From positions 1-46,727 of IMG/VR virus record IMGVR_UViG_3300025617_000959: 46,727 nucleotides of DNA; one strand, given 5' to 3'. This document shows, piece after piece, positions 3,103 to 43,419 of this stretch. The notes beneath the pieces were generated by a model that saw only the letters and a list, made by a program, of their open reading frames with translations, had not been told where the DNA came from and did no database searches. Origin of the DNA: a virus. Numbering within the stretch: the stretch's first letter is position 1; each line of letters opens with the position of its first letter. The position numbers were made by a program, and so were the translations under genes.

Positions 3103-3105
3103 AAT

Positions 3106-3483: not shown

Positions 3484-3484
3484 C

Positions 3485-5227: not shown

Positions 5228-5228
5228 T

Positions 5229-7515: not shown

Positions 7516-7530
7516 TTTTATATTTTATTT

Positions 7531-8316: not shown

Positions 8317-8950
8317 ACTGAGTTCTAATTTTAATGCATTGTTCTTCTGTGAACCATTTATCTATAGCATGAGCTCCTAAGGAACCTAATTGGAATACTG
8401 ATTCTACTGAGAATTTTTTAGCTTCTTTTAAAGGAGCAAGAGTACCGTATCCTTTATCTACCATCATTCTTGTAAAAAATAGATCTTCTCCCATATCTCT
8501 ACCCCAAGTATTCTCTGATAATATATTATACATAACTTTAGGGTTCCGGATAGAAAGTCCTCCATTGCCAACATACGGGTAATAATCCGGATCGTATTCC
8601 TTCCAAGGAGCGCCAATATAGTCATACTCGAGAAAATCTTCTATACCTGGTTTAAATATCTCACTATCGGATTGGAAAATAACAACTCTATCATACTCGT
8701 AATACTTATACCAAAATGCCTTATCAGTTAACATTAAATTATACTGGTGTACAAGAAAGAGAGGTTCTGAAGGTATAGTTTTTAAATGTATTGTAAAATT
8801 CTCTAATTCTACAGTACTGTTTAATTCATCAATATTTTGCGAAACTGTATAAATAAATAAGTCCCCTTTAGGGCAGAACTTAAGGTTTTGCTTAATTGCT
8901 TTATAGATTTCTTCTAGTCTAGTATCGACTAATATGTACCCTAATTTCAT
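8303..8950 (-). CDS. DUF5672-type glycosyltransferase
   Basis: A 215-aa protein with a GT-A-like layout. QSDSEIF (93-99) is in the position of the DxD metal site. DYIGAPW (110-116), VGNGGLSIRN (127-136) and GEDLFF (154-159) are the DUF5672 hallmarks, which also resemble eukaryotic-like galactosyl/glucosyl transferases. Donor and acceptor are unknown. It overlaps both neighbours (14 bases with GT11, 4 bases with the GT25 gene), which points to translational coupling in one operon. Confidence 0.75.
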   Translation of the reverse strand: MKLGYILVDTRLEEIYKAIKQNLKFCPKGDLFIYTVSQNIDELNSTVELENFTIHLKTIPSEPLFLVHQYNLMLTDKAFWYKYYEYDRVVIFQSDSEIFKPGIEDFLEYDYIGAPWKEYDPDYYPYVGNGGLSIRNPKVMYNILSENTWGRDMGEDLFFTRMMVDKGYGTLAPLKEAKKFSVESVFQLGSLGAHAIDKWFTEEQCIKIRTQYDNI

Positions 8951-10377
8951 TTTAAATGAGTTTTATATGAGTCTAAAATTACGTTAGAGTAGTTTACCTC
9001 TTTTTGTTCTATGTCGGAATAAGATGGTCTCTGTATTGCTAAAACCGGTAGAACTGTATATACATTAAATCTAGAATCTCTAGACATATTCATGTACAGC
9101 TCATCAATAGCTCTATAATCTTTCCAATTAAAATTTAAAATATGGTCATAAGCTTTTTTAAACACCACGTATGCATGAGCACAGTAAGAACCATTTATTT
9201 TACCTAAATTAGGTGAAACTCGATTAATATCCGCTAATACGTTAGCACCTAAGTATAATATGTCGCAAGGTGGTTGATGATTAAGGTCATTAAAAGCTTT
9301 ATCTAGTAACTCATGTGGTGATTCAAGAAATGCACAATCATCTTCTAATATCAACACACATTCTTGGTTTCTTTCTTTTGCTTTTTTTATTATCTCTAAG
9401 TGAGAATACGCACAACCTAATCTGGAAGAAGCTAAATTTTTATCGTGATCATTAAATTCAGGATGTAATTTAAGATAATCTTCAAGCTGTAGAGGGGTGG
9501 TTTCTATACCTTCTTGACGTTCAGCAGTAATACCGTGAGATACTAATTCTTTATCAATAAGTTCTCTTCTATCGTGTCTTCTGTTTAAATTTATATAATA
9601 TACCTGGTCAACTAAATTATTAACTTTTTTACCTTCAAATTTAATTTTAAAAGTTAAATTGGTATTATCATAAATCCTATTAGAACAGTAACTATCAAGT
9701 TTACCTATATTAATAGTTTCCCCCATAAGGTAACGCAAACCCATAGTATATAAACTATACTGAGTATCTCCGGAATCTTTATATTGGTCTACGTACTCTA
9801 CTCTATTAAGGTTACTGATAAAACAGGGAGATATTCCATAGAAAAGTTGTAATTTATCTTCAAATTTTCTACTATCGGCTTTAAATATTTTACCGTATAA
9901 ATCAACTTTATCTATTAATTCAGGTTTTTCAGTATAGTAGTATAAATTATCACGTTTATTTAAAAGAGATGCTACATTATAAAAAGTACCTTCACTACCC
10001 TGTACTTTATTTAAGCCACAAAATAAATTAAAGTACTCATTATTAAAGTCTAAATAGTAAAGATCGTTTAAATTAAATTCTCTAGTAAATAACGTATTAC
10101 CAGGTAAAACTAAATTAAGTATCTCAGTTTTAAAGTAATCTTCAACGTGATATGTTGAATTACCCTCATTTAAATTAACTAAAGTAAATTCTATATCTCT
10201 TCTTTTTCCAATTAACTTCTGAAAAGCATCTCTGATTGCCCATTCGTGTGTGTAATTACTGTATAAGACATTAAAAGTTACTCCGATATCTCCTTTTTTA
10301 TATTTTAAAAAAGATTCTATTAAAGCATCTGTCTGTGCAGGTCTTTCAAATCCAATTATTGTAATATGTAACTTCAT
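8947..10377 (-). CDS. Two-domain glycosyltransferase with C-terminal GT25 domain
   Basis: A 476-aa protein. Residues 1 to about 235 look like a degenerate GT2-type domain (MKLHITIIGFERPAQTDALI at the start); no clear DxD was found. Residues about 257-455 are a GT25 (LPS glycosyltransferase) domain: VYYINLNRRHDRR (259-271), LGCAYSHLEIIKKA (320-333) and VLILEDDCAF (341-350), whose EDD binds the metal/nucleotide sugar. GT25 members transfer galactose or glucose in LPS cores or on collagen. It overlaps the DUF5672 gene by 4 bases and the next GT gene by one base. Two domains suggest addition of two sugars or an acceptor-binding N-terminal part. Confidence 0.8.
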   Translation of the reverse strand: MKLHITIIGFERPAQTDALIESFLKYKKGDIGVTFNVLYSNYTHEWAIRDAFQKLIGKRRDIEFTLVNLNEGNSTYHVEDYFKTEILNLVLPGNTLFTREFNLNDLYYLDFNNEYFNLFCGLNKVQGSEGTFYNVASLLNKRDNLYYYTEKPELIDKVDLYGKIFKADSRKFEDKLQLFYGISPCFISNLNRVEYVDQYKDSGDTQYSLYTMGLRYLMGETINIGKLDSYCSNRIYDNTNLTFKIKFEGKKVNNLVDQVYYINLNRRHDRRELIDKELVSHGITAERQEGIETTPLQLEDYLKLHPEFNDHDKNLASSRLGCAYSHLEIIKKAKERNQECVLILEDDCAFLESPHELLDKAFNDLNHQPPCDILYLGANVLADINRVSPNLGKINGSYCAHAYVVFKKAYDHILNFNWKDYRAIDELYMNMSRDSRFNVYTVLPVLAIQRPSYSDIEQKEVNYSNVILDSYKTHLK

Positions 10378-11303
10378 TATAGGTAATTTATATCCGGTCT
10401 TCCGGTTTTAGCTCTTTCTTCAAATGTACGAGTTTTAAAATTAACTCCAGCGTACTTTTCGTACTGTTCTACTGTACGTTCGGTTCCAAGTCCATATCTA
10501 CCTAAATCTTCTGATGTATCTCCGGTAAGCATTGCTTCTACTCTATTATTATTTCTTTTATCTAGCTTATGAAACCAGTCAGGATGGTCATCACTAAATA
10601 CTTTTCTATAATGTCTGTCGTGTTTATGTGCAGCCATATTTACCGTAGTAGCATAATGGTTATATCCATGTGTGAATGATCGAACAGCTAGAGAAATTTC
10701 TTCTCCTAAAAATAACAAATCTGGATCATAAGGTACGTCGTGTATCCATTTACTATGCCCAAATAAGTTACTAGCGGTTAAAAAACTATTAAGTTCTGGT
10801 TTATCGCATTCTTCTCTTACTTCATACATCTGTAATAGAAGTGGTCCAGCAAAAGCATTAGCTACAGAAACTGCTCTAGTATTAGGTTTACCGTACCATT
10901 TACCAAATCCATTAGGTGGATCCCATTGTGATACCGCACAAGATAAGATTGCTTTAGGATCATTTAAACTAAAATACTGATTAAGTAATATTTCATCCCA
11001 GTTTTTACGAACCATTATATGTGAATCTATCAACCAGAAAAAATGTTCGTCTTCTAGTAACTCAAAAGCCATACTCCGTGCCCAGCAAGCTCCTTTAGAG
11101 TGTAAAGCAGGAATTTTTAATACCCTAACTTTATTTTTATCAAAAGGTAACTCGTCTATCTCTTCTTCACCGTATTGCCAGGCAACTCCAAAAGTTACTC
11201 TATCAGGATGTTTAGCATTTTGTAATACATTATTAATGGTATGAGAAAGAAACGGATCTCGATACGCAGCTATATTAACAAATATTTTAGTATTTCTATC
11301 CAT
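10377..11303 (-). CDS. GlcNAc-transferase-like glycosyltransferase (PF11397 type)
   Basis: A 308-aa GT-A protein. IAAYRDP (11-17), GACWAR (71-76) and LIDSH (91-95, the metal-binding acidic motif) form the core of the family that includes the Skp1 hydroxyproline GlcNAc transferase. Further on, FLGEEISLAVRSFTHGY and the terminal YGLGTERTVEQYEKYAGV are shared almost word for word with the neighbouring 508-aa protein. The two genes therefore look like a tandem duplication. It overlaps that neighbour by 8 bases. The acceptor is unknown; protein glycosylation is possible given the Skp1 relatives. Confidence 0.8.
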   Translation of the reverse strand: MDRNTKIFVNIAAYRDPFLSHTINNVLQNAKHPDRVTFGVAWQYGEEEIDELPFDKNKVRVLKIPALHSKGACWARSMAFELLEDEHFFWLIDSHIMVRKNWDEILLNQYFSLNDPKAILSCAVSQWDPPNGFGKWYGKPNTRAVSVANAFAGPLLLQMYEVREECDKPELNSFLTASNLFGHSKWIHDVPYDPDLLFLGEEISLAVRSFTHGYNHYATTVNMAAHKHDRHYRKVFSDDHPDWFHKLDKRNNNRVEAMLTGDTSEDLGRYGLGTERTVEQYEKYAGVNFKTRTFEERAKTGRPDINYL

Positions 11304-12822
11304 TAAGTACAGTAGTTATTTTATTTCCCCAACCTTTAGATTCACTATGTGGCCAAACGATCCATTGGTGGGGAATTGGACCGGTGTATTCTCTCCATAT
11401 ATTCATCCATTCATTATCGCTTTTTTTCATAGATTTAATTTCTCCGGCGGTGAGATCTTTTCTAAAAATCTGCTTACCATCTTTATCTTCAAAAATAACT
11501 GCTGCAAAACTATAATCATCTTCAGGAAAGTCGTTTTTATGTACATCTAAACAATGTTTAAATTTACTAAAAAAGGAATTGTTATAATCTTCAACCTCAG
11601 GGTTAGGTGGTATTTTATTACTTAACGTATATTGCTGTACCCCTCTATCGTTAAACCTTATACCGGCATATCTTTCATATTCTTGTAAAGTTCTAGAAGA
11701 ACCAAAACCATATTTACCTTTTCTATATTCCTCATTTACCTGACCATCAATCCCTAATAATTCTCTGGTTAGTTTATGGGTGTTTGTATTAAGCTGAGTC
11801 CAATCTGAAGAATCATCCCAGTGTTTTGTTCTACCTTTTCTTGTATATTCATGATATGCAATAATCTTATGTGGATGGTAGATATCATACCCATGAGTAA
11901 ATGCTCTTACACCAATAGTAATTTCTTCACCGTGGAAATAAAATTGAGGATCATGTTGAACTTCGGTGGAAAATTCTCCTGCAGTAAATGCAAAGTGAGC
12001 TGAATAAAACCTACCTTTTATAGGTTCGTTTCTAGTTTTCCAATCCGGTACTCCGGCTGGTAGGAAAAATACTACACCTTCAGGGGTAAATCTATCAAAA
12101 GTCATCCACCAAGGTTCAACTCCTCTATCCTCTGGATCGTTTTCTGGATTAAATGAAGAAATATAACTAGTAAGTAAAGGTTTATCAACTCCTTTGTTTC
12201 GGAGTTTCTGGTACATGTAAATAAGTTCTAAATCCCAATTTTTGATAAATCTATGATGAGAATCTAACTGTAATGTATACCTTTCTCCGTTGTATTCCTG
12301 TTGAATTTTATTTCTAGCCCAACATGCACCTTTTGCCTGTTTATATGGAATATCTAAAATAGACACCCTACTGTCGTCTTTGTATTTATCTACATTATCC
12401 CATTTATCTTTATCAGAATGTTGCCAGGCAATACATACTTTTATATTGTCCGGGTATTTTGCTTTAGAGAATAGGTCATCTAAGGTAGGAATCAATTGAG
12501 GGTCCCTATAAGATGCTATTTGTATAAAAATTGTATCATCTTTTGTGATAGTATAACTAAAATTACTCATAATCTTTTCTTTATTAAAATACTCTTTATC
12601 AATATTTTTCCATTTACCTTCCGGGCAAGCATTTTCTACTGGGGAAAATACTTTACCCTTAAGTGCACAACCACAAACAGAACATCTATTAACACCTAAG
12701 TTAGTAACTTTTTTATCACAAGAGTTACAAATTTCAATTCTTTTACTAGCTAGTTCTGATTGCTGCTGGTTAGGATCAAAAGCTATATTCCAAGCTTTAA
12801 ATATTTCCTGTATCTTATTCAT
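11296..12822 (-). CDS. GlcNAc-transferase-like protein with N-terminal Cys-rich zinc-ribbon domain
   Basis: A 508-aa protein. Residues 1-70 carry Cys32, 35, 47, 50, 52 and 66 in CxxC pairs, likely a small zinc ribbon. The GT domain starts near 95: IASYRDP (102-108), GACWAR (165-170), LDSHH (186-190), then FYFHGEEITIGVRAFTHGY and YGFGSSRTLQEYERYAG as in the 308-aa paralogue. About 100 extra residues follow at the C-terminus. An internal ATG at 12570 (MSNFSY), preceded by an A/G-rich stretch, lies exactly between ribbon and GT domain, so a shorter product or a recent fusion is possible. It is the first gene of the left glycan block and follows nrdA by 17 bases. Confidence 0.8.
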   Translation of the reverse strand: MNKIQEIFKAWNIAFDPNQQQSELASKRIEICNSCDKKVTNLGVNRCSVCGCALKGKVFSPVENACPEGKWKNIDKEYFNKEKIMSNFSYTITKDDTIFIQIASYRDPQLIPTLDDLFSKAKYPDNIKVCIAWQHSDKDKWDNVDKYKDDSRVSILDIPYKQAKGACWARNKIQQEYNGERYTLQLDSHHRFIKNWDLELIYMYQKLRNKGVDKPLLTSYISSFNPENDPEDRGVEPWWMTFDRFTPEGVVFFLPAGVPDWKTRNEPIKGRFYSAHFAFTAGEFSTEVQHDPQFYFHGEEITIGVRAFTHGYDIYHPHKIIAYHEYTRKGRTKHWDDSSDWTQLNTNTHKLTRELLGIDGQVNEEYRKGKYGFGSSRTLQEYERYAGIRFNDRGVQQYTLSNKIPPNPEVEDYNNSFFSKFKHCLDVHKNDFPEDDYSFAAVIFEDKDGKQIFRKDLTAGEIKSMKKSDNEWMNIWREYTGPIPHQWIVWPHSESKGWGNKITTVLNG

Positions 12823-31605: not shown

Positions 31606-32766
31606 TTAAAACCTTGTATTACCGTAGTGAATAACTTTTAAAGAATTTGAAGAATAAGCTCTCCAAGGATCTATTACTGTGGAACCGTTAGGAAAATTAT
31701 AATTATGGAACTTTCCCATATGTCCTAAAAGGAATACTGAGGGTTTATCTGTTATAGTATCAAACTCGGGTTTAATTCCCATTTCTTCACAATAGTAACC
31801 TGTTAATATAGTTGTGGACCCATCTTCATATGGTACATCCGGTTTATAGGATTTACCTAAAATAACTATAGGTAGATTATTATTTTTAGCCTCTTTTACC
31901 AATCTTATAGCTAAATTCTTAGCTTGTTTCTCTCTAGCATTCATTATAGCATCAAATAGATCATAACCTAATCCTAATTCTTCCGCCATATATCGTAAAG
32001 CAATATTATCTCTTGGATGACATCCTCCACCGTCTCCCATTCCAGCTTTCATATAAGCCTTTCCTAGTATCCGCTGGGTGGATCTTTCTAAGGCTCCTGT
32101 AACTACATCTACGTTCATGTTGCCTCCTTTTTCAGCAACATCTTGAATCATATTAACAAGAGCTACTTTAGTAGATATAAATGTATTATAAAATATTTTT
32201 ATTGCCTCTGCTTCATCCCAAGTTCCCACTTCATATCGTGTACCTTCTGTTATAAACGTCTTGTAAAAGTTTAATAGCATCTTAGCATCACCGGTCATTG
32301 AACCGTCTTCTGTACCAATTATAACCATCTCAGGGTTAATCATATCCCATTTTACAGTCCCCATAGCTATTAAATATGGATTGTAGATAAACCTACCATT
32401 AGGTATAAGGTTTATAAATTCTCTTCTAATAGTACCGGGTAATACGGTAGATATTAAAACTACTAATTGATCTTTAGTAACGTACTTGTTTGTTTCTTCT
32501 AATACATCTTTGACGATCTGGTAATTAAAGTCTCTGTTAGGTAAATGTGCTGTTGGGTACCTACCGTCGTAGTCTGGATGATGAGGTGTTGGTACAGCTA
32601 TAAAAATCATTTCCTTATCTTTACAAACTTCCTCTATGGTGTCAACTATGTTAAAGTTTTCCGGTTCAACTTTTGTTACATCGTAACCTATAACGTCATG
32701 TTTCTCTGCCATTACTTCGGCAGCATCTTTTCCGAGTTTTCCAACCCCTATAAAACCAATTTTCAT
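31606..32766 (-). CDS. UDP-glucose/GDP-mannose dehydrogenase family enzyme
   Basis: A 386-aa NAD-dependent dehydrogenase starting MKIGFIGVGKLG. A Met 17 codons upstream would lie inside the preceding gene and break the Rossmann start, so 32766 is preferred. IGVGKLG (6-12) binds NAD, and VPTP (58-61) and STVLPGT (106-112) are family motifs. Lys190 and Asn194 are the usual catalytic residues. Cys249 lies in GGGCHPRDN (246-254), corresponding to GGSCFPKD of classical enzymes; the Lys there is Arg252. GKSYKPD (304-310) closes the second domain. The enzyme would oxidise a nucleotide sugar to its uronic acid; the substrate is not resolved. It ends the right glycan block. Confidence 0.8.
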   Translation of the reverse strand: MKIGFIGVGKLGKDAAEVMAEKHDVIGYDVTKVEPENFNIVDTIEEVCKDKEMIFIAVPTPHHPDYDGRYPTAHLPNRDFNYQIVKDVLEETNKYVTKDQLVVLISTVLPGTIRREFINLIPNGRFIYNPYLIAMGTVKWDMINPEMVIIGTEDGSMTGDAKMLLNFYKTFITEGTRYEVGTWDEAEAIKIFYNTFISTKVALVNMIQDVAEKGGNMNVDVVTGALERSTQRILGKAYMKAGMGDGGGCHPRDNIALRYMAEELGLGYDLFDAIMNAREKQAKNLAIRLVKEAKNNNLPIVILGKSYKPDVPYEDGSTTILTGYYCEEMGIKPEFDTITDKPSVFLLGHMGKFHNYNFPNGSTVIDPWRAYSSNSLKVIHYGNTRF

Positions 32767-32779
32767 AGTATATAAATTT

Positions 32780-33748
32780 TTAACACTTTTTATTGTTATT
32801 ATAAATATCAACTCCAATCTTTACTTGTTCTATAATACAATCTATTTTCTTATCTAAATTTGTTTCTGAATCGTATGAGGTATCCACCCAATCGGTTAAA
32901 TGGCTAATATCTTTATTTAAATACTTCAGACAATAGGTCTTAAGTGTTGCAAGAGCATTTATAGGTCCTAAAAGAATAAACTTTTTATCTAATAGTATAC
33001 ACTTTCCTACTTTCTCCGTTAAAAATATAGGTTCTCCATAAAAAGCTTCTGTAACTAGTACAAAATCTGATGCGTCGTAAAATTCCCTATTAAAATACTT
33101 CGTATGAGATACCTCACTAGAAAATGAATCAATATCAAGTTTCATATATTTAGGTTTATCTTCAAAATATTCTAATAATTTAGGAGAATTTTTATATTTG
33201 CTATCTAAATCAAAATTTAATTCATCATCTAGAAAGTAGCTAATATGTCCTTCCTTTATTAAGTTTTCTTTAAATAGTTCTTTAAGTAGTTTAATTCTAT
33301 GTACTTTAGACTTTCCTACCATATATAAGAAAGCTTTTTTCTTTGGGTACAGTGAAATTTCAGGCTCTATAGGTTTATATAAATCTATATTACTTATAAA
33401 GTATGGTTGTATATTGAGGTTATTATTCTGTATAATGTATTTTTCTATATGATTTATTCCATTAGAGTATATAGTATAGTTTACAGCATTTTTTTTTATC
33501 CATTGATATGAGTCACCTGGAATGGTTTCAAATGTACCGTCAATTATTAAGTGTTTATCATTATATTTCAGTAAAAATTTAGTCAATTCATTTTCACTCT
33601 CAATACCGTACAGTAAACCTACTGTAAGTACCACACATTCTGCTTCCACTAAACTCAAAGTCTCTTTTCTAAACTGTAAGAATGTGTTTGTATGTTTGTA
33701 TACACTATTAGGGTCTGCCCAGTAAGCTATTTTATCTATATAATACAT
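32780..33748 (-). CDS. Phage glycosyltransferase-like protein (SEK-type C-terminus)
   Basis: A 322-aa protein. MVGKSKVHRIKLL (143-155), FLTEKVGKCILL (242-253) and the end segment with VDTSYD (288-293) have the same order as in the neighbouring 478-aa protein (NRRPRHHR, FFSEKTFKPI, WWDESYD). This is the pattern of a large family of marine-phage and bacterial transferases related to exostosin-type GT-B enzymes. The Glu-Lys pair is probably the nucleotide-sugar contact. It lies in the right glycan block. Confidence 0.55.
   Translation of the reverse strand: MYYIDKIAYWADPNSVYKHTNTFLQFRKETLSLVEAECVVLTVGLLYGIESENELTKFLLKYNDKHLIIDGTFETIPGDSYQWIKKNAVNYTIYSNGINHIEKYIIQNNNLNIQPYFISNIDLYKPIEPEISLYPKKKAFLYMVGKSKVHRIKLLKELFKENLIKEGHISYFLDDELNFDLDSKYKNSPKLLEYFEDKPKYMKLDIDSFSSEVSHTKYFNREFYDASDFVLVTEAFYGEPIFLTEKVGKCILLDKKFILLGPINALATLKTYCLKYLNKDISHLTDWVDTSYDSETNLDKKIDCIIEQVKIGVDIYNNNKKC
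32800..32807 (-). promoter_or_regulatory. Putative promoter element TATTTATA inside a gene end
   Basis: The coding strand reads TGATATTTATAATAACA, 33 bases before the dehydrogenase ATG, within the last codons of the preceding gene. Confidence 0.3.
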
Positions 33749-33766: not shown

Positions 33767-35203
33767 CTATATTAAAGTTTGTTTTATTTCTCGTTTATGT
33801 TTATTATGTAACTTTAAGATAAAATCCTCGTACCTAGTATTATTAAGAAAATTATTAAAGTTATGAATTAAGGTTTCTTCCATTTCTTGAGTTACTTTAA
33901 TACATTTTTCATGTGACCATGTACAAATTTCTTCCATTATTGCCGAGATCTTTTTTATTCGTTTTAAGTAATCTGTTTCTTCATCGTAACTTTCATCCCA
34001 CCATTTATCAAATGTCCTATACCCCATCTCTTTTAGTTTCTTAAGTGAAAAAGGATTTCCTAAAAATAAAAAAGGTTGAAGATTATAAATTGGTTTAAAA
34101 GTTTTTTCAGAAAAGAATAAAGTATCACTACTAACTAAGGTTTCTGAAGTAAGAGAGCAAAAGGTATTTTTGTAGAAACCTCTAGTATATTCAGTAGCTC
34201 TATTCTCTTCCAAAGTTACATCAAGTTCTACTGATTTTAAAAAATCATGTGTTTTGGCAAATTCATAGTTCTTTTTATATTCTGGGTAATTGTAGAAAAT
34301 GTATTCTAGTTGTTGTATTACATGTTCATTGTTTGGTATGAGACCATCAGTACCAAGAGAAATTTCACAATTTTCTTTTAAAATAGCATTAGTCATAATT
34401 TCTGTAAATAGTATGATTCTATGATGTCTTGGTCTTCTATTAAGAATATTAAAGTGTTTGTTTATTACCTTATTTTTGTTATCGTTGAGAAACGTTTTAA
34501 AATTAGATTTTACTATCTTTTTATGAACATATGGAGGATATACAAAAGCAGGTATATACTCAAAGTAGTTAATAGGTAAGTAAGAAAAGGTAACTTTAAT
34601 GTTTTCCGATTGAGCTTTATTTATAGTTTCATTAAATTTTAAGTTACTATGAACAAATGTAAAATTACTTGGGTTAAGATTATTTGCTGCTCCGAGTTGA
34701 GATATCCATTCTACTTCTTTTACGGTGTTTAGGTATCCTTCATGTAAAAAGGTGAAGAGAACCTTACATAATCCTTTTTGTATTGCATCTGTAATTTCTG
34801 CGCTAAAGCCAAATGTTGGTTTTTTGTACCAACACTTAGTCATAGAGTATACTACATAGTAGAATGGTTGTTTCTTAGCAACTAAATTTTCTACTGTATC
34901 AAATTCAACACTAACGTTACCGCTTGGAAAAGCATGTTGATAGTTATGGTAATTTAGTTTTAAATAAATTTCATTTTCTTCTTCTTTACTTCGTACTCCA
35001 CTTATGTCCTTCCACTGTATTGGAAACTCTATATTATATTGATTTTTTATTTCTTCAGGTGTAAATCTTAATAAAGGAGAATCATTAGTAAATGTATCCT
35101 GTTCAGGCCAGCCTGGTGGTATATCTATATTAGGTTTACCTTGGAGGTCATATATTGCTACTTTATCCATCCCTATGTAGAGAGTAGGTTGTTGTTTCAT
35201 CAT
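33767..35203 (-). CDS. Phage glycosyltransferase-like protein, long form
   Basis: A 478-aa protein. The C-terminal half carries NRRPRHHRIILFTEI (255-269), FFSEKTFKPIYNLQPFLFLG (363-382) and WWDESYDEETD (401-411), a set recurring in phage transferases of exostosin-like GT-B type. The N-terminal half has no motif that was recognised. It abuts the DUF6734-like gene without a gap and precedes the shorter paralogue-like gene by 18 bases. Function as a sugar transferase is inferred; the acceptor is unknown. Confidence 0.6.
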   Translation of the reverse strand: MMKQQPTLYIGMDKVAIYDLQGKPNIDIPPGWPEQDTFTNDSPLLRFTPEEIKNQYNIEFPIQWKDISGVRSKEEENEIYLKLNYHNYQHAFPSGNVSVEFDTVENLVAKKQPFYYVVYSMTKCWYKKPTFGFSAEITDAIQKGLCKVLFTFLHEGYLNTVKEVEWISQLGAANNLNPSNFTFVHSNLKFNETINKAQSENIKVTFSYLPINYFEYIPAFVYPPYVHKKIVKSNFKTFLNDNKNKVINKHFNILNRRPRHHRIILFTEIMTNAILKENCEISLGTDGLIPNNEHVIQQLEYIFYNYPEYKKNYEFAKTHDFLKSVELDVTLEENRATEYTRGFYKNTFCSLTSETLVSSDTLFFSEKTFKPIYNLQPFLFLGNPFSLKKLKEMGYRTFDKWWDESYDEETDYLKRIKKISAIMEEICTWSHEKCIKVTQEMEETLIHNFNNFLNNTRYEDFILKLHNKHKREIKQTLI

Positions 35204-36178
35204 TTATAGAAATAATTTTTTATATTTGTTTAGGTACTCTCCTTCTCCTGAACCAAAGTAAAACTCTATCTTTTCTAATATTTCTATACCTATATGCTTA
35301 ATTAATCTGTGGATAATAATTAATTGAACGGCAAGAGAAAGTTTAGATGAACCTAATAGATGTACTGCGGGAAGGTCCTCGAAATTATAATTCTCAACTA
35401 AATTTCTTAAGCTACTGTATTTAAGTTTTCTACCATTATACCAGTCATCAACCTCATATCCTTCGTCTTTTTCATTTATAAATAATAAAGGCGGTCTATC
35501 GTATAAGTTATTATTAGAATTAAATACCGAAGTCTTATAGTTTTGACTATATTCTATCAGGTATTTATTAATCATTGCTTGCTCTAAAAAGCATCCACTA
35601 GCATAATCAGAATCAAAGTAATCAACATTACTATAGTAGAAGTCTAAAACCTTGTTTACAGCTTTGGAAAAGAGCTGTGTATCATTACACATTACTGCTC
35701 CCATATTAGGTATTTGATCTAATCTTATATTATTTAGTAACTGTTTACCGTATTTGGTACTTAAATCAATAGCTGGTTTAAAATACGCCTGGTTAATGCC
35801 GTCTATATTTATAAATTCCCAATCTCTTTTAATATCCTTATGAGAAAACTTTACTACACCGTCTTCATTAAGTTTCTCTTGTTCAAACGGTATAAAGTCT
35901 AAATCTAAGTGTAAGAAAGGCTCAGTTTGACTTTTGTATGTAACTAACTTACTAATATACGGTAGTTTATATAACTGTGTATCAATATTAATTTCCTCGT
36001 AGTCGCTAAATGGTAAACAACATTCTTTAAATTTCTGTATTAGTGTACTATTAGATGTAAAGGTACTATTACCGTATAGTTCAAGACTCTTAATACTAGA
36101 TAAGATTCCTATGTGAAGTACTTCCACAGGAATAAATTCCGGTAAATGTGGGTTAATAAAAGAATATACTACTTTCAT
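35204..36178 (-). CDS. DUF6734-like putative glycosyltransferase
   Basis: A 324-aa protein. LHLDLDFIPFEQ (89-100) is a DxD-type motif after a beta strand, with an upstream helix (about 20-50) containing SIKSLELYG. NMGAVMCNDTQLF and SGCFLEQAMINKYL further on resemble the acceptor-side motifs of GT8-like enzymes. The 294-aa protein at the right end of the block shows a similar DHD motif. It overlaps the radical SAM gene by four bases (ATGA type), so translation is coupled. Confidence 0.55.
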   Translation of the reverse strand: MKVVYSFINPHLPEFIPVEVLHIGILSSIKSLELYGNSTFTSNSTLIQKFKECCLPFSDYEEINIDTQLYKLPYISKLVTYKSQTEPFLHLDLDFIPFEQEKLNEDGVVKFSHKDIKRDWEFINIDGINQAYFKPAIDLSTKYGKQLLNNIRLDQIPNMGAVMCNDTQLFSKAVNKVLDFYYSNVDYFDSDYASGCFLEQAMINKYLIEYSQNYKTSVFNSNNNLYDRPPLLFINEKDEGYEVDDWYNGRKLKYSSLRNLVENYNFEDLPAVHLLGSSKLSLAVQLIIIHRLIKHIGIEILEKIEFYFGSGEGEYLNKYKKLFL

Positions 36179-37593
36179 TCTGCTAAATCTTTACATAAAT
36201 TATAAAATTCTTCTAATTCAGGAAAAGTTTTAATAAAATCTGTATTTCTTCTTTCATCATGAGATTTAAAAAACCTATAGAAGTTTTTTCTAGATTCTTC
36301 AATACGTTTTGGATCATGCTCTCCTTTCATCCAGTCAGCTATCCTTTGTATCTTAGATACTTCAATATCTGTAAAACCGGTATGCCATTGCCTCCAAGTT
36401 GCTTCTGGGTCTTTTTCTACCATTCTATGACCATCTGCAAATTTAGCAATATCTTCAATTTGCTCTATATATTCTGGTGGGAGTATATTTACTGCCTGGT
36501 GTGAAGGGTGTCTTAAGTAAGAGGAATCAACCATAATAACTGGATTCCAATACCTGTCTGAGCTGTTATATTTTTTCTTACAATTATATGCAAATGCTAA
36601 CATATCTTTATATTTAGGTATAGAGAGTATATTAAATGTACTCATAATAACAAAAGATACTTTCTTACAGCTTGAAAGAATATTTTCAAGATTTTGGCAA
36701 AAATATTCGTAGTTTAAACCGTTTCTAATATAATCTGCATGTTCACCAGCAGTATCAACTGAAGTATAGATTACAAGTTCTTTAACTAAGTTATTTTCTT
36801 CAATTATATTTATCTTTTCTATAAGCTTATCAATAAGTTTTTGAGGAACTCCTAAGTTAGAATTAATACCTAATCTAAGTTCTCTGTTTGGATTTGGATT
36901 ATCAATTATATAATCAAGAATCTTCCATACGTCATTATGCATTAACGGCTCCCCACCGGTCATTCTAAATGTATGTAGGTCTCTATATAAATCTGGCCAC
37001 CATTTCCAAAATGCTTCTACATAAGGATTATAATCATTATGATGTATAGGCATTCTTTTCTGTTCCTCTAACCATTTAATATCGTTAAAATTATCAGATG
37101 TAGGATAAGCTCCATGTTTTTTAATTTCTTGAACCCATGCAGATGAAAATGAAGGTCCACAGTAGGAACATTTAAAGTTACAGGCATTGGAAAAAGCTAC
37201 TTCTACATATTTAGGGTTAAAATCTCCTCTCCAACCTAAATCTTTTATTTCCTGTATGTATGGCTTAGACCAAGGTTCATTTGACTTATATATTCTATCA
37301 GAAAATTCATTAGAATTATCTTCTACATTCCAACAATAATCACATTCCGAAGGTCTTTTACCTTCTAACATCTCTTTTCTCTTCTCTTTCTTAAATTTTG
37401 TATTATGTAAAGCTGAAGGATTACGTTTTAATTCCGAGACTGGAATTTTATGAGTGTTAGGATGGTGACATGAATGAGTTTCCCCCATCTGTAAATGTAT
37501 TGTAACTTGAGTCCATTTAGCTAAACAGAATCCTTTACCAACTGAATCCAGTTCTGTTTTATACTGCTGTAATTGTTGTTTTTCTTCACTCAT
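36175..37593 (-). CDS. Twitch-type radical SAM enzyme
   Basis: A 472-aa protein. The radical SAM cluster motif is Cys138-x3-Cys142-x2-Cys145 (NACNFKCSYCGP), with the SAM-binding MTGGEPL at 211-217. Additional Cys at 23, 42, 84 and 87 (ECDYCW) lie before the core and could bind an auxiliary cluster, as in twitch/SPASM-like enzymes with an unusual N-terminal placement. The substrate is unknown. Its start overlaps the stop of the GT7-LamG gene by four bases and its stop overlaps the DUF6734-like gene start, so it belongs to the glycan operon. Candidate roles are sugar epimerisation or modification of a protein acceptor. Confidence 0.85.
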   Translation of the reverse strand: MSEEKQQLQQYKTELDSVGKGFCLAKWTQVTIHLQMGETHSCHHPNTHKIPVSELKRNPSALHNTKFKKEKRKEMLEGKRPSECDYCWNVEDNSNEFSDRIYKSNEPWSKPYIQEIKDLGWRGDFNPKYVEVAFSNACNFKCSYCGPSFSSAWVQEIKKHGAYPTSDNFNDIKWLEEQKRMPIHHNDYNPYVEAFWKWWPDLYRDLHTFRMTGGEPLMHNDVWKILDYIIDNPNPNRELRLGINSNLGVPQKLIDKLIEKINIIEENNLVKELVIYTSVDTAGEHADYIRNGLNYEYFCQNLENILSSCKKVSFVIMSTFNILSIPKYKDMLAFAYNCKKKYNSSDRYWNPVIMVDSSYLRHPSHQAVNILPPEYIEQIEDIAKFADGHRMVEKDPEATWRQWHTGFTDIEVSKIQRIADWMKGEHDPKRIEESRKNFYRFFKSHDERRNTDFIKTFPELEEFYNLCKDLAE

Positions 37594-39002
37594 AACTTTA
37601 TATCTATCATTTTAGCCCAAGGGGTTAATTTATGCTCTTTTATAAACTCGTACTTGACTTGTTTAATACCGTCCTGTTTATAATTTAAAATACCTTGCTG
37701 CATTTGTAGTACATATCTCTTTTCGTTTCTAGCTGTTGTTTCACCTTTCACAAATTTACCGTTAATAATACCTTCATCTTTATGAGGTAAACATCTCATT
37801 TTTCCTTCTACTCTATGTGGAAGTATGGAATTAGGTATTTTAAATTTACCGCTTTTAAGCTCTACATTCTTACCTATGTACTGTGACTGTGGTGAATTAA
37901 AATCTAAATCAACTTGAAGACCGGCAGAAGGTATGTTAGATTGTAAGTGTGTTATTTCTGTAGAGGTAAGAGATCTATTCCATACATAAACTTTTGCAAT
38001 ATCACCTTTAAAGAACTTATTACTTTCACCTTCTTTTAAGGAAGGAGTACTACCTAAATAAATAGAACTTTTACCGTATGGTTTTAACCTACCATTAAAA
38101 TTCAATGGGGAAGGGCTACCGTTTCCGGCTCTTGTATCTACTTCTGAACCGTTGAGGTATAAATGTGATTCTTTAGATTCAGCATCAATGACTGCTGTAA
38201 TCCATGTCCATTGATTGTCATATCTTTTTAACCACATGTAGTTATGCTGGTTGAATGTGTTCCAATATTGAAAAGATATAGCTCTAGAGTTATTGAAGGA
38301 AAACCCATAATCATATCCAGGTACCCTAAATATTGGATATTCTACATACTTAGCTTTATCGTCTCCTATTAAAAATATACTATTCTTATCTACTTGTTGA
38401 TAAGCTCTAACTAAAACAGACACAGTATGTGAGGTATTAAATAGATGCTTATGATCTGAGTTATATGGTATTTCTATCTCTCCTGAATTACCGTCAAAAC
38501 TGTAGTACTTTTGATCCTCAATTTCAGTTAAATATGTGTTATTGGTTAGTCCTTCTTTATAAGTTCTCCAAAATAGATCATCATCTTCCATTCCCCAATC
38601 CCAATACTCATTTGAATAGCCATTAGTTGCTTCTACTTGTTCTTTTGTAAATAAGACTGCTCCTCCAAAGTATTCATGATACTTTAATTGGTAGTTCATT
38701 TGAGAAATTTGGGTGGCAATATGTCGGGGTGCATCTTTAGGGTAGGAGTAATCACAACCTCCTCCTTCTATAGGTATCATATCAATATCATGCCATACAA
38801 TATAGTCACATCCTTCCTCGAAAGCATGTTTTGCTGCTATATTTTTAGTAGCCCCTCTATTGAAAAGCTTATCGTCTACCTGGTGACAGAAATACATTTG
38901 AAAATCAATACCTTGATTCTTTAAGTACTTACCTACCTTAGGTATAAACTCATTAAGGTGTAATTCTCTATCTCTATATGGTACACAGACTCCTAATTTC
39001 AT
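37590..39002 (-). CDS. GT7 galactosyltransferase-like protein with nested LamG domain (first copy)
   Basis: A 470-aa protein. The N-terminal part is a GT7 catalytic core: VPYRDR (7-12), FNRG (47-50), HDIDMIP (71-77, the DxD), YFGGAVLF (111-118) and NGYSNEYWDWGMEDDD (127-142). The GT7 C-terminal segment (RCLPHKDEG, then DGIKQVKYEF, residues about 402-454) appears only after an insertion of about 220 residues. The insert (about 165-385) reads as a LamG/concanavalin-like beta sandwich: YSFDGNSGEIEIPY, then WTWITAVIDAESKESHLYLNG and FFKGDIAKVYVWNRSLTSTEI. A lectin domain inside the enzyme probably presents the acceptor glycan. It overlaps its paralogue and the radical SAM gene by four bases each. 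Confidence 0.8.
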   Translation of the reverse strand: MKLGVCVPYRDRELHLNEFIPKVGKYLKNQGIDFQMYFCHQVDDKLFNRGATKNIAAKHAFEEGCDYIVWHDIDMIPIEGGGCDYSYPKDAPRHIATQISQMNYQLKYHEYFGGAVLFTKEQVEATNGYSNEYWDWGMEDDDLFWRTYKEGLTNNTYLTEIEDQKYYSFDGNSGEIEIPYNSDHKHLFNTSHTVSVLVRAYQQVDKNSIFLIGDDKAKYVEYPIFRVPGYDYGFSFNNSRAISFQYWNTFNQHNYMWLKRYDNQWTWITAVIDAESKESHLYLNGSEVDTRAGNGSPSPLNFNGRLKPYGKSSIYLGSTPSLKEGESNKFFKGDIAKVYVWNRSLTSTEITHLQSNIPSAGLQVDLDFNSPQSQYIGKNVELKSGKFKIPNSILPHRVEGKMRCLPHKDEGIINGKFVKGETTARNEKRYVLQMQQGILNYKQDGIKQVKYEFIKEHKLTPWAKMIDIKL

Positions 39003-40291
39003 ATCCCTACATTTAAATGTGTGTACGTTCCTTCTATAGTTTTACCATGTAAGGTATATTCACAGTTAGATAACCCGTCTTCTATATTATCCCTAACCCC
39101 AGTTTGTACTTCATTATTATACCTAAGTTGATTCCATCTAGTAGTGTTATTTCTCCATTTGCCGTCTACATATCCATCAGTTTTATGAGGTAAAAACTTT
39201 ATACTACTGTTTCTTCTATGAGGCTCATAGGAGTAGAAATCTTTCGGTGATTTAAATTTATCAACATATATATCGTTTAAAGTACCGTTATTTTTATTAC
39301 CACTAAGATCTTTGAGCTCATAATTTTCTAACTCTGGTGATTTATATTCAATTAATTTAACACCTTGCTGTAATATTGAAAAATAGTCTATAGTACCTTT
39401 AAAAAACTCTGTTTTATTAGTATTTGTTCCTAGTAGAATAGCATCTTGATTTTTGTAATTAAAAATTTGAGACGATAAATCAATATACCCAACTTTTATA
39501 TTATTAACCGTAAATTTAATTCTATTAACTATTTTAATATATTCAATAGTAATGTTATTAGAACTCTGTGTGCTATAGTCTGAAAATATATCAAAATACT
39601 TATTTTTATTGTCAAAGACCTGTAAATAAAACCTGTTAAAAGATGAATAAGAGAGTTGAAAATCATATCCCGGTATTGAGAATATAGGAAATATATCAAC
39701 TTCTTTGTCTGTACTGTATAATAACCTATCTAAATGTAGATTTATGTTTATAGTAAAGTCACTATTGTAGTTAATTACATTAGGTACCCTAATATAACCG
39801 CTGGTGCCGTTTAAAATACAGGATTTAAAATTATTTTCTACAGTTTTAAGTTTAAATCCTATGTTATTTTTCACACATCTATACCTCAGGTCATCATCTT
39901 CAAATCCCCAACCCCAATATATGTTAGAAAATCCATTTATTTTTTCAAAGTCTTCTACAGGAAATAATGTTATACCTCCAAAATACGAAGGAAAGGTTAT
40001 GTCTTGGGTGGCTAAATGTACTGGATGGTTAGAATAAGAATAATCTATATCTATTGGAAGCATATCTACGTCATGGAATATAACATAGGTACAGTCCTGT
40101 TTCTTAGCTTCTTTAAACCCTATATTACATAACATTCCTCTATTAAACGCAGAAGCATTGTCCTGTTCCACAATTATGATAGTAAAATCTATTTTTTTGT
40201 CCTGAAGATACTGAGTGATATGAGGGATAAATTGAGTAAGATGTTTGTACCTATCTCTATAAGGTACTATTATACCAACTTTATTTCTCAT
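38999..40291 (-). CDS. GT7 galactosyltransferase-like protein with nested LamG domain (second copy)
   Basis: A 430-aa paralogue of the neighbouring protein. GT7 motifs are VPYRDR (9-14), FNRG (49-52), HDVDMLP (73-79), YFGGITLF (103-110) and GFSNIYWGWGFEDDD (120-134). The last is closer to the vertebrate GWGxEDDD motif than in the first copy. An insert of about 190 residues (155-345) has the LamG layout, though it is more diverged. The GT7 end (PHRRNSS, FLPHKTDG at 367-373, EDGLSN at 404-409, TYTHLNVGI) follows. Identical order in both proteins shows the insertion came before the duplication. The two may add different sugars. Confidence 0.8.
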   Translation of the reverse strand: MRNKVGIIVPYRDRYKHLTQFIPHITQYLQDKKIDFTIIIVEQDNASAFNRGMLCNIGFKEAKKQDCTYVIFHDVDMLPIDIDYSYSNHPVHLATQDITFPSYFGGITLFPVEDFEKINGFSNIYWGWGFEDDDLRYRCVKNNIGFKLKTVENNFKSCILNGTSGYIRVPNVINYNSDFTININLHLDRLLYSTDKEVDIFPIFSIPGYDFQLSYSSFNRFYLQVFDNKNKYFDIFSDYSTQSSNNITIEYIKIVNRIKFTVNNIKVGYIDLSSQIFNYKNQDAILLGTNTNKTEFFKGTIDYFSILQQGVKLIEYKSPELENYELKDLSGNKNNGTLNDIYVDKFKSPKDFYSYEPHRRNSSIKFLPHKTDGYVDGKWRNNTTRWNQLRYNNEVQTGVRDNIEDGLSNCEYTLHGKTIEGTYTHLNVGI

Positions 40292-40472
40292 TTATGAATT
40301 TATCTTTCCATAATGACAGATACCATTGAATTCTCTCATCCCAAGTATCTTTATCTATTTCTTCAAACCAAATAGTTAAAGCGTCTAATGAATTAGAGAT
40401 CTTCTCTAAAGCTTTAACTTTTCTTTCTTCAAGAATTATACTCTGTAATTCTTTTTCTGTAGGTTTACTCAT
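40281..40472 (-). CDS. Small helical protein in the glycan operon
   Basis: A 63-aa protein starting MSKPTEKELQ. Its ATG overlaps the TGA of the upstream GT gene (ATGA), which decides this start over a Met 11 codons earlier. It is rich in Glu and Lys with a helix of KALEKISNSLDAL type and a Trp-rich end. It overlaps the next GT7-LamG gene by 11 bases. No function was recognised; the coupling suggests a partner of the transferases. Confidence 0.55.
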   Translation of the reverse strand: MSKPTEKELQSIILEERKVKALEKISNSLDALTIWFEEIDKDTWDERIQWYLSLWKDKFINEK

Positions 40473-41308
40473 ATCAAAACTATTTTTTTCATTAATATAT
40501 CCCACTTGGAATAATCCATATAGTCAATATATGAACTTTCTATTAAAGTTTCTACTAAAAATTCAGGATTATTAATATCTATCCTATCTTCAAAAAGTTT
40601 TATTATATCGTACATAATTCTATACTCATCAGAAAAAGCATAGTCCATATTGATATCAGCAACTTTTTTAATTCTACTAACACAGGTACTATCCCATTTA
40701 AAATGGTGTACTTGAGTAAAGCATTCTTCTATAGGTAATCTTTTAGGATGCTTAATACCCCAGCTATTAGTACCGTCTTGAAAATGAGCATAATGCTGGC
40801 CTGGTGTTACATCTTGGTACCCTTTCATTAGAGTTACTTTGTTTGGACATGCACCAGATATTGGATGTCTAAAAAAACCAGCAAGTGGAAAAGCTTTATG
40901 TAGATTGGTAGAATTGTCTACCACCGGAAATGTTCCGTTAGGTCCTATTCTATCTATAAATCCACCTGTAACAAAGTCATAACCTCTATTCTCACATTTT
41001 TCTATAATATCCTCTATAGGTTCTGGGTATACTTGTAATTCGTCGTCATCAGAAACTATCCACCAATCGTCAGGTTTAGTTCTTTTGACTTCATTATATA
41101 GTTCAGTTACTCTATTCCAATTATATTTTGGTTCAGTCACAACCTTATAGGGAGTAATACCTAGGTTTTCTACCTTTTCAAGTATATTATCATCTTTAGA
41201 TTGTCTATAAACTACTACGTAAGTTTTATCTACTTGATCTTTGTAGTGGTTTAACATATGTGGAAGAATATGAGTATTTTCTCCTACTACTGTTACTAAG
41301 TTAAGCAT
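40469..41308 (-). CDS. GT2/GT92-like glycosyltransferase
   Basis: A 279-aa GT-A protein. It starts with VTVVGENTHILPHMLNHY, a typical beta-alpha opening of GT2/GT92 enzymes. WWIVSDDDELQ (82-92) is the DxD metal site with the trailing Glu seen in GT92-like enzymes. SGACPNKVTLMKG and HYAHFQ further on are likely acceptor-side loops. It overlaps the methyltransferase gene by eight bases. Donor and acceptor are unknown. Confidence 0.7.
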   Translation of the reverse strand: MLNLVTVVGENTHILPHMLNHYKDQVDKTYVVVYRQSKDDNILEKVENLGITPYKVVTEPKYNWNRVTELYNEVKRTKPDDWWIVSDDDELQVYPEPIEDIIEKCENRGYDFVTGGFIDRIGPNGTFPVVDNSTNLHKAFPLAGFFRHPISGACPNKVTLMKGYQDVTPGQHYAHFQDGTNSWGIKHPKRLPIEECFTQVHHFKWDSTCVSRIKKVADINMDYAFSDEYRIMYDIIKLFEDRIDINNPEFLVETLIESSYIDYMDYSKWDILMKKIVLI

Positions 41309-42023
41309 GCTGTATTAATGTTATTCCTGTAGAGGAAGGTTTATCATTTATGGTCCCGTGATTAAAGAAGTTGAATGTTTTCCATTCTTTTGGTAACTCT
41401 TCAATAAGCCTGGAAGGACCATCTAGTGGAGTAAATGAATGTTTATTGTCCTCACTTATAATTAACGTGTCTAAGTAAGTTTTATCGGTATCATGTATAC
41501 TTATGATACCGTTAGGAGAAAGTATTTTACTGTAAAGCTCAAAGTCTTTTTTTACCCCTTCATATGAATGATCACCATCTATGTGAATAAAATCAGCTTT
41601 GATGTCCTGTTTAATAAAAAAGTTATAATAAGCATTTACTGAAGTATCTTTTATAAATCTAGGGTAAAAATTAGATCTATAAAATGAATTTTCATCCAAG
41701 TAATCTACATGACCACCAATTTCGTTAGCAGCATCTACTAAATAAGTAACTCCGGTATCTCCTCTGTAGGGATCTTTACTACCTTCAAATATCTTTTGAT
41801 CATATAGATCTAACCTTGCCTGGGTCATAATCCTAGGAATAAAACCACCGCCGGAACCAATACAGATTAAACTCTTATACCTCATCATCTGTATAATAGA
41901 GTATATAAGCATACCATCACCTAGGTGTAAGTCTGTAGCACCGTGACTCCATCTAAAGCTTACTTGTTCACCGTCATTGGTAGTAATAAACTTACTTATA
42001 AAATTTTTATCAACAACAGACAT
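41301..42023 (-). CDS. Class I SAM-dependent methyltransferase (Methyltransf_24 type)
   Basis: A 240-aa protein. The SAM motif is LICIGSGGGFIPR (52-64). DFIHIDGDHSYEGVKKDFEL (144-163) followed by GIISIHDTD is the hallmark of the Methyltransf_24 group found in glycan and cephalosporin-type loci. The position within a GT operon suggests O-methylation of a sugar. It overlaps the next gene start by one base. Confidence 0.8.
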   Translation of the reverse strand: MSVVDKNFISKFITTNDGEQVSFRWSHGATDLHLGDGMLIYSIIQMMRYKSLICIGSGGGFIPRIMTQARLDLYDQKIFEGSKDPYRGDTGVTYLVDAANEIGGHVDYLDENSFYRSNFYPRFIKDTSVNAYYNFFIKQDIKADFIHIDGDHSYEGVKKDFELYSKILSPNGIISIHDTDKTYLDTLIISEDNKHSFTPLDGPSRLIEELPKEWKTFNFFNHGTINDKPSSTGITLIQHA

Positions 42024-42907
42024 TACTTATTTTTTATATTAGATAAGTCTAAATTAGGCATTTTAATACAATTTTTTAAATGTATTATCTCTCCGTTATA
42101 ACTTTCACCTTCCCTACTATCTTTTATAGCACCTTTTAAGGGACCGTAATGCTTAAAGTATTTGTATGAATCATTAAACGGCCAAAGACCTTGATTATGA
42201 TCTTCTCCCCAGTCCCATTTTTTACAATCCCAGTACGTAGAAATGATACTACTATGCTGTATATTAGTTTTTAAAAGTAAATGTTTTAAAAGTAATTGTT
42301 CTGAGAATATTAAGTATTGAGGGTTTGGTGCTTTAATAGCTGTCAACTCCTCCATTAACTGTAAGCTTAGATTTGCATACTCTTGTGTAAATGTAGGGTC
42401 AGGTAAATTTAAAAACGAAACGTTAACAGAGTCTGTTTGCCATCTCGGTTTATATGATAATTGTTTAATATACTTGTCAGTAGAATTTGGATAAAAGTTT
42501 TGACCTTTCTCAAAATTAGTTACGTATACTTTATCTAGATCTAAGAACTGTTTAAATGGTTTGTAGATGTGTGTATCGTGATCCATTAAAATAACTGGAT
42601 CTTTTACCTCACTTAATACCTGTAGTTTGGAGCTAGCCCAGAATACACTCTTATTTATTTTCTTTGGATTAGGAATAGGTAAAACTTCATCCCAAAATTC
42701 TATAACCTTTAATTTATATAAAACATCATAAGACATTTCATCACAATATAAAACACAAGTATCTTCTCTATGATTTCTTTTCCATAAAGAAATAGAAGAA
42801 AGTAGAAGTAGTAAATCTAATTTGCTATAGAAATTTAAATTCTTTTCTATATTTTCATAAACCCAAATTACTTTTAACTTTGTATTAGATTGCTGGGATC
42901 TATCCAT
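42023..42907 (-). CDS. DUF6734-like putative glycosyltransferase
   Basis: A 294-aa protein. ILMDHDTHIYKPF (106-118) is the putative DxD, after a KLQVLSEVKDPV segment. SVNVSFLNLPDPTFTQEYANLS and the later FSEQLLLKHLL are shared in kind with the 324-aa DUF6734-like protein. It overlaps the 5' neighbour by 34 bases, an unusually long coupling. It is the first sugar gene of the right block. Confidence 0.55.
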   Translation of the reverse strand: MDRSQQSNTKLKVIWVYENIEKNLNFYSKLDLLLLLSSISLWKRNHREDTCVLYCDEMSYDVLYKLKVIEFWDEVLPIPNPKKINKSVFWASSKLQVLSEVKDPVILMDHDTHIYKPFKQFLDLDKVYVTNFEKGQNFYPNSTDKYIKQLSYKPRWQTDSVNVSFLNLPDPTFTQEYANLSLQLMEELTAIKAPNPQYLIFSEQLLLKHLLLKTNIQHSSIISTYWDCKKWDWGEDHNQGLWPFNDSYKYFKHYGPLKGAIKDSREGESYNGEIIHLKNCIKMPNLDLSNIKNK

Positions 42908-43419
42908 TCAAGTAAAACCTCTTTTAAATTATTATAACCTTTTTCCTGTATGTTAATTAGAACTGAGCTATCAAATATTTTCTTAGTGGTTGGGGTTGTA
43001 CCTCCTTGAACCATCTTCTCTTTGATTACTGTTCTATATTTAGTTATTTCATCTCCATTTTCATCAAAACTTACATATGGAATTTCTTCAGTATATGTTT
43101 CAGATACATATACCGGTTCCTCTATAGTTTTAACTGTACCTGCGAAAGTATTTAAAGAATGTGGTAATAGTATATCTTTATAAGAACTTTCGTTTTTATA
43201 TACAATAATATTTGTATCTAGTAATTTTTGAGTTTTGGATACTTTATCACCTTCTTGTGTAGGTGTATGTTTATCTGATGATTTTTTATCAGGCCAGTAA
43301 GTATATGAGAAAGTACACATACCGGTAGGTTTACTAAAATGAAAACTTTCTATCCTAACATATATTTCATTTAACTTACCGTAACTAGTCTCAAAATCTC
43401 CTTTTAATATATAACCCAT
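42874..43419 (-). CDS. Unknown protein near the tail fibre
   Basis: A 181-aa beta-rich soluble protein with many Thr, Tyr and Lys residues and no signal or membrane segment. It starts just after a terminator and ends 34 bases inside the first transferase gene of the glycan block. A virion-associated or tail-fibre accessory role is possible from position. No family was recognised. Confidence 0.55.
   Translation of the reverse strand: MGYILKGDFETSYGKLNEIYVRIESFHFSKPTGMCTFSYTYWPDKKSSDKHTPTQEGDKVSKTQKLLDTNIIVYKNESSYKDILLPHSLNTFAGTVKTIEEPVYVSETYTEEIPYVSFDENGDEITKYRTVIKEKMVQGGTTPTTKKIFDSSVLINIQEKGYNNLKEVLLEWIDPSNLIQS

Follow-up and report, generated by a model that had tools for sequence, protein, structure and literature searches.

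Beta-1,4-galactosyltransferases 1 and 7 (B4GalT1 and B4GalT7; PDB 6fwt, 2ae7, 4irp, and 3lw6) are Golgi type II membrane proteins with a contiguous catalytic domain and no LamG domain, and the acceptor specificity of B4GalT1 is altered by a separate protein, alpha-lactalbumin; animal enzymes of this kind synthesize lactose and attach galactose. GT7 proteins are also found in bacteria and viruses as insert-free enzymes of ~210–260 aa (loci L150, L151, and L217–L234). Here, we analyze IMG/VR virus record IMGVR_UViG_3300025617_000959 over a stretch of 46,727 nt (the window), in which two adjacent minus-strand genes encode the GT7 enzymes P1 and P2. Both share with B4GalT1 and B4GalT7 the DxD, FGG, and WGWG-EDDD motifs, the metal-ligand His, the C-terminal DGL, and the core fold, and both match the same profile over its whole length as the insert-free proteins. 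By contrast with all of these relatives, P1 and P2 carry a built-in LamG-type domain that is nested within the catalytic domain.

A split GT7 catalytic domain in P1 and P2

An earlier note on this DNA had placed two genes for GT7 enzymes with an internal LamG domain at 37590–40291, and we found both there on the minus strand, sharing a 4-base overlap. Their parts are as follows.

37590..39002, minus strand: P1, GT7-LamG enzyme 1, 470 aa
38544..39002, minus strand: P1 GT7 core N-part, residues 1–153, with DxD at 72–74, YFGG at 111–114, and WDWGMEDDD at 134–142
37827..38543, minus strand: P1 LamG-type insert, ~residues 154–392, with a Laminin_G_3 match (E 2.4e-14), modelled beta strands, and Foldseek matches to 4dqa and pentraxins
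37590..37826, minus strand: P1 GT7 core C-part, residues 393–470, covering profile nodes 159–225, with metal-ligand His407 and DGI
38999..40291, minus strand: P2, GT7-LamG enzyme 2, 430 aa
39851..40291, minus strand: P2 GT7 core N-part, residues 1–147, with DxD at 74–76, YFGG at 103–106, and WGWGFEDDD at 126–134
39221..39850, minus strand: P2 LamG-type insert, ~residues 148–357, with DLSGNKNNG at its C-terminal end, marking a probable circular permutation
38999..39220, minus strand: P2 GT7 core C-part, residues 358–430, covering profile nodes 162–221, with metal-ligand His369 and DGL

P1 and P2 are 31% identical across almost their full length, insert included. A Pfam scan identified GT7N and GT7C (both above the cut-off) and Laminin_G_3 in both proteins, the Laminin_G_3 match of P2 alone falling below the cut-off (E 0.0013); Laminin_G_3 was also matched in 77 of 84 P1 homologues and 62 of 67 P2 homologues. 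In IMG/VR, 61 stretches hold P1 relatives and 177 hold P2 relatives, and we kept 141 loci on roughly 124 contigs (repeated contig names counted). Among all sequences fetched, 353 proteins are split in this way, nearly all with the break at nodes 158–164 of an insert-free GT7 profile, and one joint profile matches every insert.

That insert-free profile was built from 69 bacterial GT7 proteins. P1 matches it with residues 2–153 (nodes 3–160) and 393–461 (nodes 159–225), and P2 with residues 3–147 (nodes 2–162) and 358–418 (nodes 162–221), so that in each protein the two matches complement each other and meet at one node, with next to nothing duplicated or missing. Searching with the flanks joined, a check that had been proposed together with structure prediction, gave 197.0 bits for P1 compared with 170.6 for the N-part alone (170.1 ± 1.5 with 200 shuffled C-parts) and 220.0 bits for P2 compared with 197.1 (197.6 ± 1.7 with 200 shuffled C-parts). 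Because these gains of 26 and 23 bits vanish when the C-parts are shuffled, the GT7 domain is split well beyond chance. Furthermore, human B4GalT1 is recognized at 2e-47 by a profile made from 84 family members; the match covers profile positions 2–155 and is followed by a second, colinear but weak match over the C-terminal 50 residues.

AlphaFold2 produced confident models for both P1 (predicted local distance difference test [pLDDT] 93.7, predicted template modelling score [pTM] 0.86) and P2 (pLDDT 94.9, pTM 0.89), with the GT7 and beta-sandwich folds present in each. After the insert, the modelled elements run as a strand with LPH, a helix, and two strands, which is the order of the GT7 end. 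Foldseek matched the N-core of both models to B4GalT1 and B4GalT7 at ~1e-13; these alignments end at a long gap, with ~150 residues aligned, and the completion of the domain by the C-piece is addressed by the profile test instead. We infer that the C-piece packs onto the GT7 core in both proteins.

Together, the profile halves and the models agree that the GT7 catalytic domain of P1 and P2 is split by a nested LamG-type domain, in the order that the earlier note had read from the sequence (GT7 core up to EDDD, beta-sandwich, GT7 end). Two of its details hold only for P2: the insert length of 190–220 residues (210 in P2, but ~239 in P1) and the tail motif HKxDG (LPHKTDG in P2, whereas P1 reads LPHKDEG). 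Both proteins have the whole-domain profile match of GT7, with DxD, EDDD, and the metal-ligand His in place; the contiguity seen in all insert-free GT7 proteins, which is not a CAZy criterion, is absent (239- and 210-residue splits).

The insertion site and a proposed role of the insert

The break falls after the EDDD helix and immediately ahead of the region that aligns to the B4GalT1 lid. In B4GalT1, the lid (residues 338–365) closes over the acceptor, with Arg355 and Phe356 contacting the acceptor N-acetylglucosamine (GlcNAc) (PMC6198961), and it bears metal ligands (PMC7565966); residues 328–334 lie near the acceptor in a published dimer model (PMC6198961). At the positions aligned to Arg355 and Phe356, P1-type proteins have 64 Arg and 2 Lys followed by 55 Tyr and 11 Phe, and P2-type proteins are mostly alike. 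The remaining active-site positions are also strongly conserved. D72, D74, Y111, W134, W136, E139–D142, and H407 are invariant across all 66 P1-type proteins; among the P2-type equivalents, DxD, the second Trp, and the Glu and first Asp of EDDD are kept in 67 of 67, the His in 66 of 67, and the last two Asp of EDDD in 60 and 62 of 67. On the strength of this conservation, we reject the reading that P1 and P2 are catalytically dead, and both are probably competent, metal-dependent, inverting transferases. The Tyr at the position of human Tyr285 (Tyr289 in the bovine enzyme), which contributes to donor specificity in B4GalT1, is present in 66 of 66 P1-type and 66 of 67 P2-type proteins, which suggests UDP-galactose (uridine diphosphate galactose) as the donor.

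The insert itself is a beta-sandwich in both models, as judged from predicted strands and from Foldseek matches to BACOVA_03559, pentraxins, laminin G, and CBM40 structures; PF02973, the sialidase N-terminal family of the sialic-acid-binding CBM40 module, gave matches in 10 of 84 and in 11 of 67 homologues, P1 and P2 themselves not among them. In canonical LamG_3 domains, including some within adhesins of these phages, the DxSGNxN motif lies ahead of the FDGxxDY strand, whereas in the inserts it lies after it, less clearly so in P1-type than in P2-type proteins. Of the 353 inserts, 72 contain the strict DxSGNxN motif; it is always outside the N-terminal half and in most cases at 80%–90% of the length. 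We searched doubled insert sequences with a profile of 48 canonical LamG domains, finding that the best match spans the junction in 151 of the 355 sequences searched, of which 353 are inserts and 2 are free-standing proteins, and in 0 of 48 canonical controls; by class, it does so in 108 of 162 P2-type and 41 of 166 P1-type inserts. Scores rise only a little (50.4 versus 46.6 bits on average over 60 cases; 44.2 with shuffled tails), and for this reason we regard circular permutation as probable for the P2-type insert and as plausible for the P1-type insert.

We consider, with somewhat better than even confidence, that these features are best explained by a permuted LamG domain that was inserted once beside the acceptor lid of two competent GT7 enzymes and that, as a lectin, aids acceptor recognition. 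The insertion would have occurred before P1 and P2 duplicated, in the loop between the EDDD helix and the metal-ligand His, at the base of the lid. Both enzymes would carry out metal-dependent, inverting transfer of galactose from UDP-galactose, the most likely donor, with the insert binding a portion of the acceptor, be it a glycan or a glycoprotein, and presenting it to the active site. P2 and P1 might then act sequentially with the GT2, methyltransferase, and radical SAM proteins encoded beside them to produce a modified glycan, carried by tail or adhesin proteins of the virion or by the host surface during infection. A role in acceptor recognition fits the insertion point and is favored because the break borders the lid, at a place where hypervariable loop extensions of GT-A families generally serve acceptor specificity (PMC7185993).

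Several points weigh against this explanation. The placement of the break at approximately human B4GalT1 residues 328–330 takes its numbering from sequence alignment; the few strongly conserved positions of the P2 insert are structural in look, being mostly Gly, Asp, and Phe, as is usual for this fold; sugar binding need not be a property of a LamG fold; and the single branch that unites insert-bearing proteins in one of the trees described below reaches a value of 79, lower than the usual mark.

Some of the same observations would also suit an insert that is a docking or targeting module for a protein partner, such as a virion adhesin, a free-standing LamG protein, a 63-residue protein of the cassette, or the other GT7 enzyme, rather than a reader of sugars. 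LamG folds are frequently protein binders, the 63-residue protein shows strict linkage to P1 and P2 (136 of 141 loci), LamG-bearing adhesins adjoin the cassette in some contigs, and the P1 and P2 genes overlap. The position of the insertion beside the lid, where GT-A extensions usually serve acceptor specificity (PMC7185993), argues against docking, which we judge unlikely, if still worth weighing.

The insert shows far greater sequence variability than the core (in P1-type proteins, a mean entropy of 1.83 versus 0.77), as expected for a part that tracks changing ligands. Such variability, like the fold-typical conserved positions of the P2 insert, would also suit a structural spacer that stabilizes or oligomerizes the enzyme and is neutral for specificity. 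Yet the insert is kept in all 353 split proteins, in both paralogues and in further copies, while insert-free GT7 proteins are common in bacteria and other viruses, and P1-type inserts conserve polar and aromatic positions beyond the needs of the fold (N237, N238, R240, W257, K259, R260, W265, and W267). We therefore find a mere spacer rather improbable and retain acceptor recognition as the preferred role.

A probable single insertion and its carriers

The insert is present in every full-length member that we found of the P1 and P2 clades, further copies included. In a core-only FastTree phylogeny of 184 rows, 116 of 116 insert-bearing proteins lie on one side of a single branch (support 0.931), and in a core-only IQ-TREE phylogeny of 110 rows, 51 of 51 do so, with a Shimodaira–Hasegawa-like approximate likelihood ratio test (SH-aLRT) value of 79. 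One protein considered as an insert-free GT7, L084_5998, is in fact a 431-aa protein with an insert and a weak, sub-threshold C-piece, and relabelling it leaves a single change on the tree. In a tree of the inserts, the 33 rows assigned to the P1 type from the core alone make up an exact clade (33/33, support 0.968), 59 of 62 P2-type rows group together with a support of only 0.516, and free-standing LamG genes are separate from all inserts (support 0.996). Core and insert trees thus agree, which supports an insertion older than the P1/P2 duplication, with moderate branch support. The earlier note had proposed this order of events, and the single branch in the core trees, the shared break position, and the congruent insert tree bear it out.

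The moderate value of 79 leaves some room for independent insertions at a hot spot or for lateral swapping of inserts between copies. With the same break position, the same insert family, congruent core and insert trees, and free-standing LamG proteins apart from all inserts, we consider either scenario very improbable. Recent borrowing of the insert from neighboring adhesin LamG domains is also not supported, as their comparison gave only weak matches. An assembly or annotation artefact that fused two genes is refuted by the recurrence of the same architecture, in one open frame, on roughly 124 contigs from many samples.

The carriers of this architecture are large, aquatic, uncultured phages, mostly T4-like among the contigs tested: gp23, the T4-type major capsid protein, is encoded on 14 of 20 large contigs, and tblastn of P1 and P2 against 50,697 records of cultured phages gave no match at 1e-5. 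Bacterial genomes encode many insert-free GT7 proteins, and only four contigs in bacterial bins have the full split architecture (one Pelagibacterales, one Fibrobacter, and two of one Flavobacteriales bin), three of them with the same cassette. These are probably phage contigs in bacterial bins, a reading based on the Pelagibacterales contig, which reaches 87% identity to viral proteins. The two cassette copies in one bin (Flavobacteriales bin NAT55, L148 and L149) occur in a genome in which one contig also encodes many LamG proteins in a row.

Viruses also encode insert-free GT7 proteins, of 208–259 aa. At three viral loci (L240:3332-4627, L263:3305-4624, and L266:3302-4627), an insert-free GT7 domain forms the C-terminus of proteins of ~440 aa, whose N-terminal part of ~225 aa has no assignment. 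Third, more divergent GT7 copies, with inserts of up to ~326 residues, are found in the same cassettes at L252:2022-3587, L277:1239-2945, L136:3787-5286, L125:4233-5711, and L290:1737-3221.

The cassette and its known counterparts

Over the 141 loci, the genes follow the order methyltransferase, GT2, P2, P1, and radical SAM (one to four copies), with P2 present in 136 loci and P1 in 139. In the window, the start of P2 overlaps the gene for the 63-residue protein, and the stop of P1 is overlapped by the start of the radical SAM gene. The other cassette genes and their common neighbors are as follows.

41301..42023, minus strand: methyltransferase (Pfam Methyltransf_24), 130 of 141 loci
40469..41308, minus strand: GT2-type glycosyltransferase (Pfam Glyco_tranf_2_4), 135 of 141 loci
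40281..40472, minus strand: 63-residue cassette protein (ILEERKVKALEKISNSLDALTIWFEEIDKDTWDERIQWYL...), between GT2 and P2 and overlapping both, 136 of 141 loci
36175..37593, minus strand: radical SAM protein with twitch domain (NCBIfam NF033640, E 1.4e-106), 131 of 141 loci
42023..42907, minus strand: DUF6734 protein (Pfam), common upstream neighbor, 66 of 141 loci
42874..43419, minus strand: 181-residue protein with no family match, common upstream neighbor, 57 of 141 loci
33767..35203, minus strand: 478-residue protein with no Pfam match, common downstream neighbor, 56 of 141 loci

PDB searches with the neighbors at 33767, 42023, and 42874 returned nothing useful. The 63-residue protein has no family match under E 0.03, and its family was found beside none of the insert-free GT7 genes at the loci examined, a further difference between those enzymes and the P1/P2 pair.

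In 76 of 131 loci, a free-standing LamG gene comes right after the radical SAM gene, a position taken in the window by a DUF6734-like gene. Three such LamG-type proteins, of ~240 aa and with DxSGNGNH at the C-terminus, were scanned with Pfam and not recognized:

L300:16803-17582, after radical SAM: free-standing LamG-type protein
L301:5877-6632, after radical SAM: free-standing LamG-type protein
L302:5126-5893, after radical SAM: free-standing LamG-type protein

The free-standing LamG proteins may also be permuted, a weak suggestion that comes mainly from the C-terminal motif as judged by eye; in the permutation test, free-standing proteins gave reversed matches in 6 of 53 cases and junction-spanning matches in 2 of 53.

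In the window, a tail fibre gene lies on one side of the cassette and the tail sheath and tube genes on the other, and on several other contigs it comes after large tail-fibre or S74/LamG adhesin-like genes. We tentatively entertain a broader role, in which the pair would be the center of an undescribed phage glycan-building cassette whose lectins recognize the acceptor both in cis and in trans, allowing a specific methylated glycan to be built or capped on tail or adhesin proteins of the phage or on the host receptor.

Other genes of the window also concern sugars. The interval from the cassette to the tail sheath gene contains a gene for a UDP-glucose/NDP-sugar (nucleoside diphosphate sugar) dehydrogenase (31606–32817, minus strand), which could supply a uronic-acid donor. 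A second sugar cluster (5810–12822, minus strand) encodes an NAD-dependent epimerase, a GT11 enzyme of fucosyltransferase type, DUF5672, GT25, and two PF11397 GlcNAc-transferases; with the main cassette, it makes up a large glycosylation set in this phage. At 2–5702 (minus strand) is a row of secreted-looking proteins with N-terminal signal-like segments that end in Gln (..YSQ, ..FSQ, and ..TGQ), a feature we take to be associated with Bacteroidota and that may indicate the host phylum.

Regions comparable to this cassette are known from pelagimyophages, T4-like aquatic phages whose host-recognition regions combine radical SAM, UDP-glucose dehydrogenase, and glycosyltransferase genes in the vicinity of tail fibre genes; that account gives GT8 as the main family and makes no mention of lectins, and in the part of it considered here the GT7-LamG pair is not seen (PMC7029224). 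We found no published description of the pair or its cassette in a search of the open-access literature.

The insert shares its fold and sequence profile with Laminin_G_3/concanavalin-like lectins (PF13385; PDB 4dqa of Bacteroides ovatus, pentraxins, and the CBM40 domain of sialidases) and differs from ordinary LamG domains in being nested in an enzyme, with the DxSGNxN strand at the C-terminal instead of the N-terminal end. A functional parallel is provided by the polypeptide N-acetylgalactosamine-transferases (GT27), in which a ricin-type lectin module steers acceptor choice. GT27 is a GT-A enzyme family of the same clade as GT7 (PMC7185993). Its lectin, of another fold, comes after the catalytic domain, whereas the lectin-type domain of P1 and P2 is of LamG type and nested. 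GT7-LamG is a new architectural variant of GT7 within a conserved and apparently undescribed phage cassette, and it draws attention to an unstudied gene set that large T4-like phages of aquatic settings carry and that includes a small protein liable to be overlooked in automatic annotation. Few GT-A families are as well understood as GT7, and the routes by which such enzymes acquire new acceptor specificity are still to be explained; with a complete lectin-type domain at the acceptor-lid loop, two paralogues, and insert-free relatives for comparison, the effect of a built-in lectin becomes directly testable.

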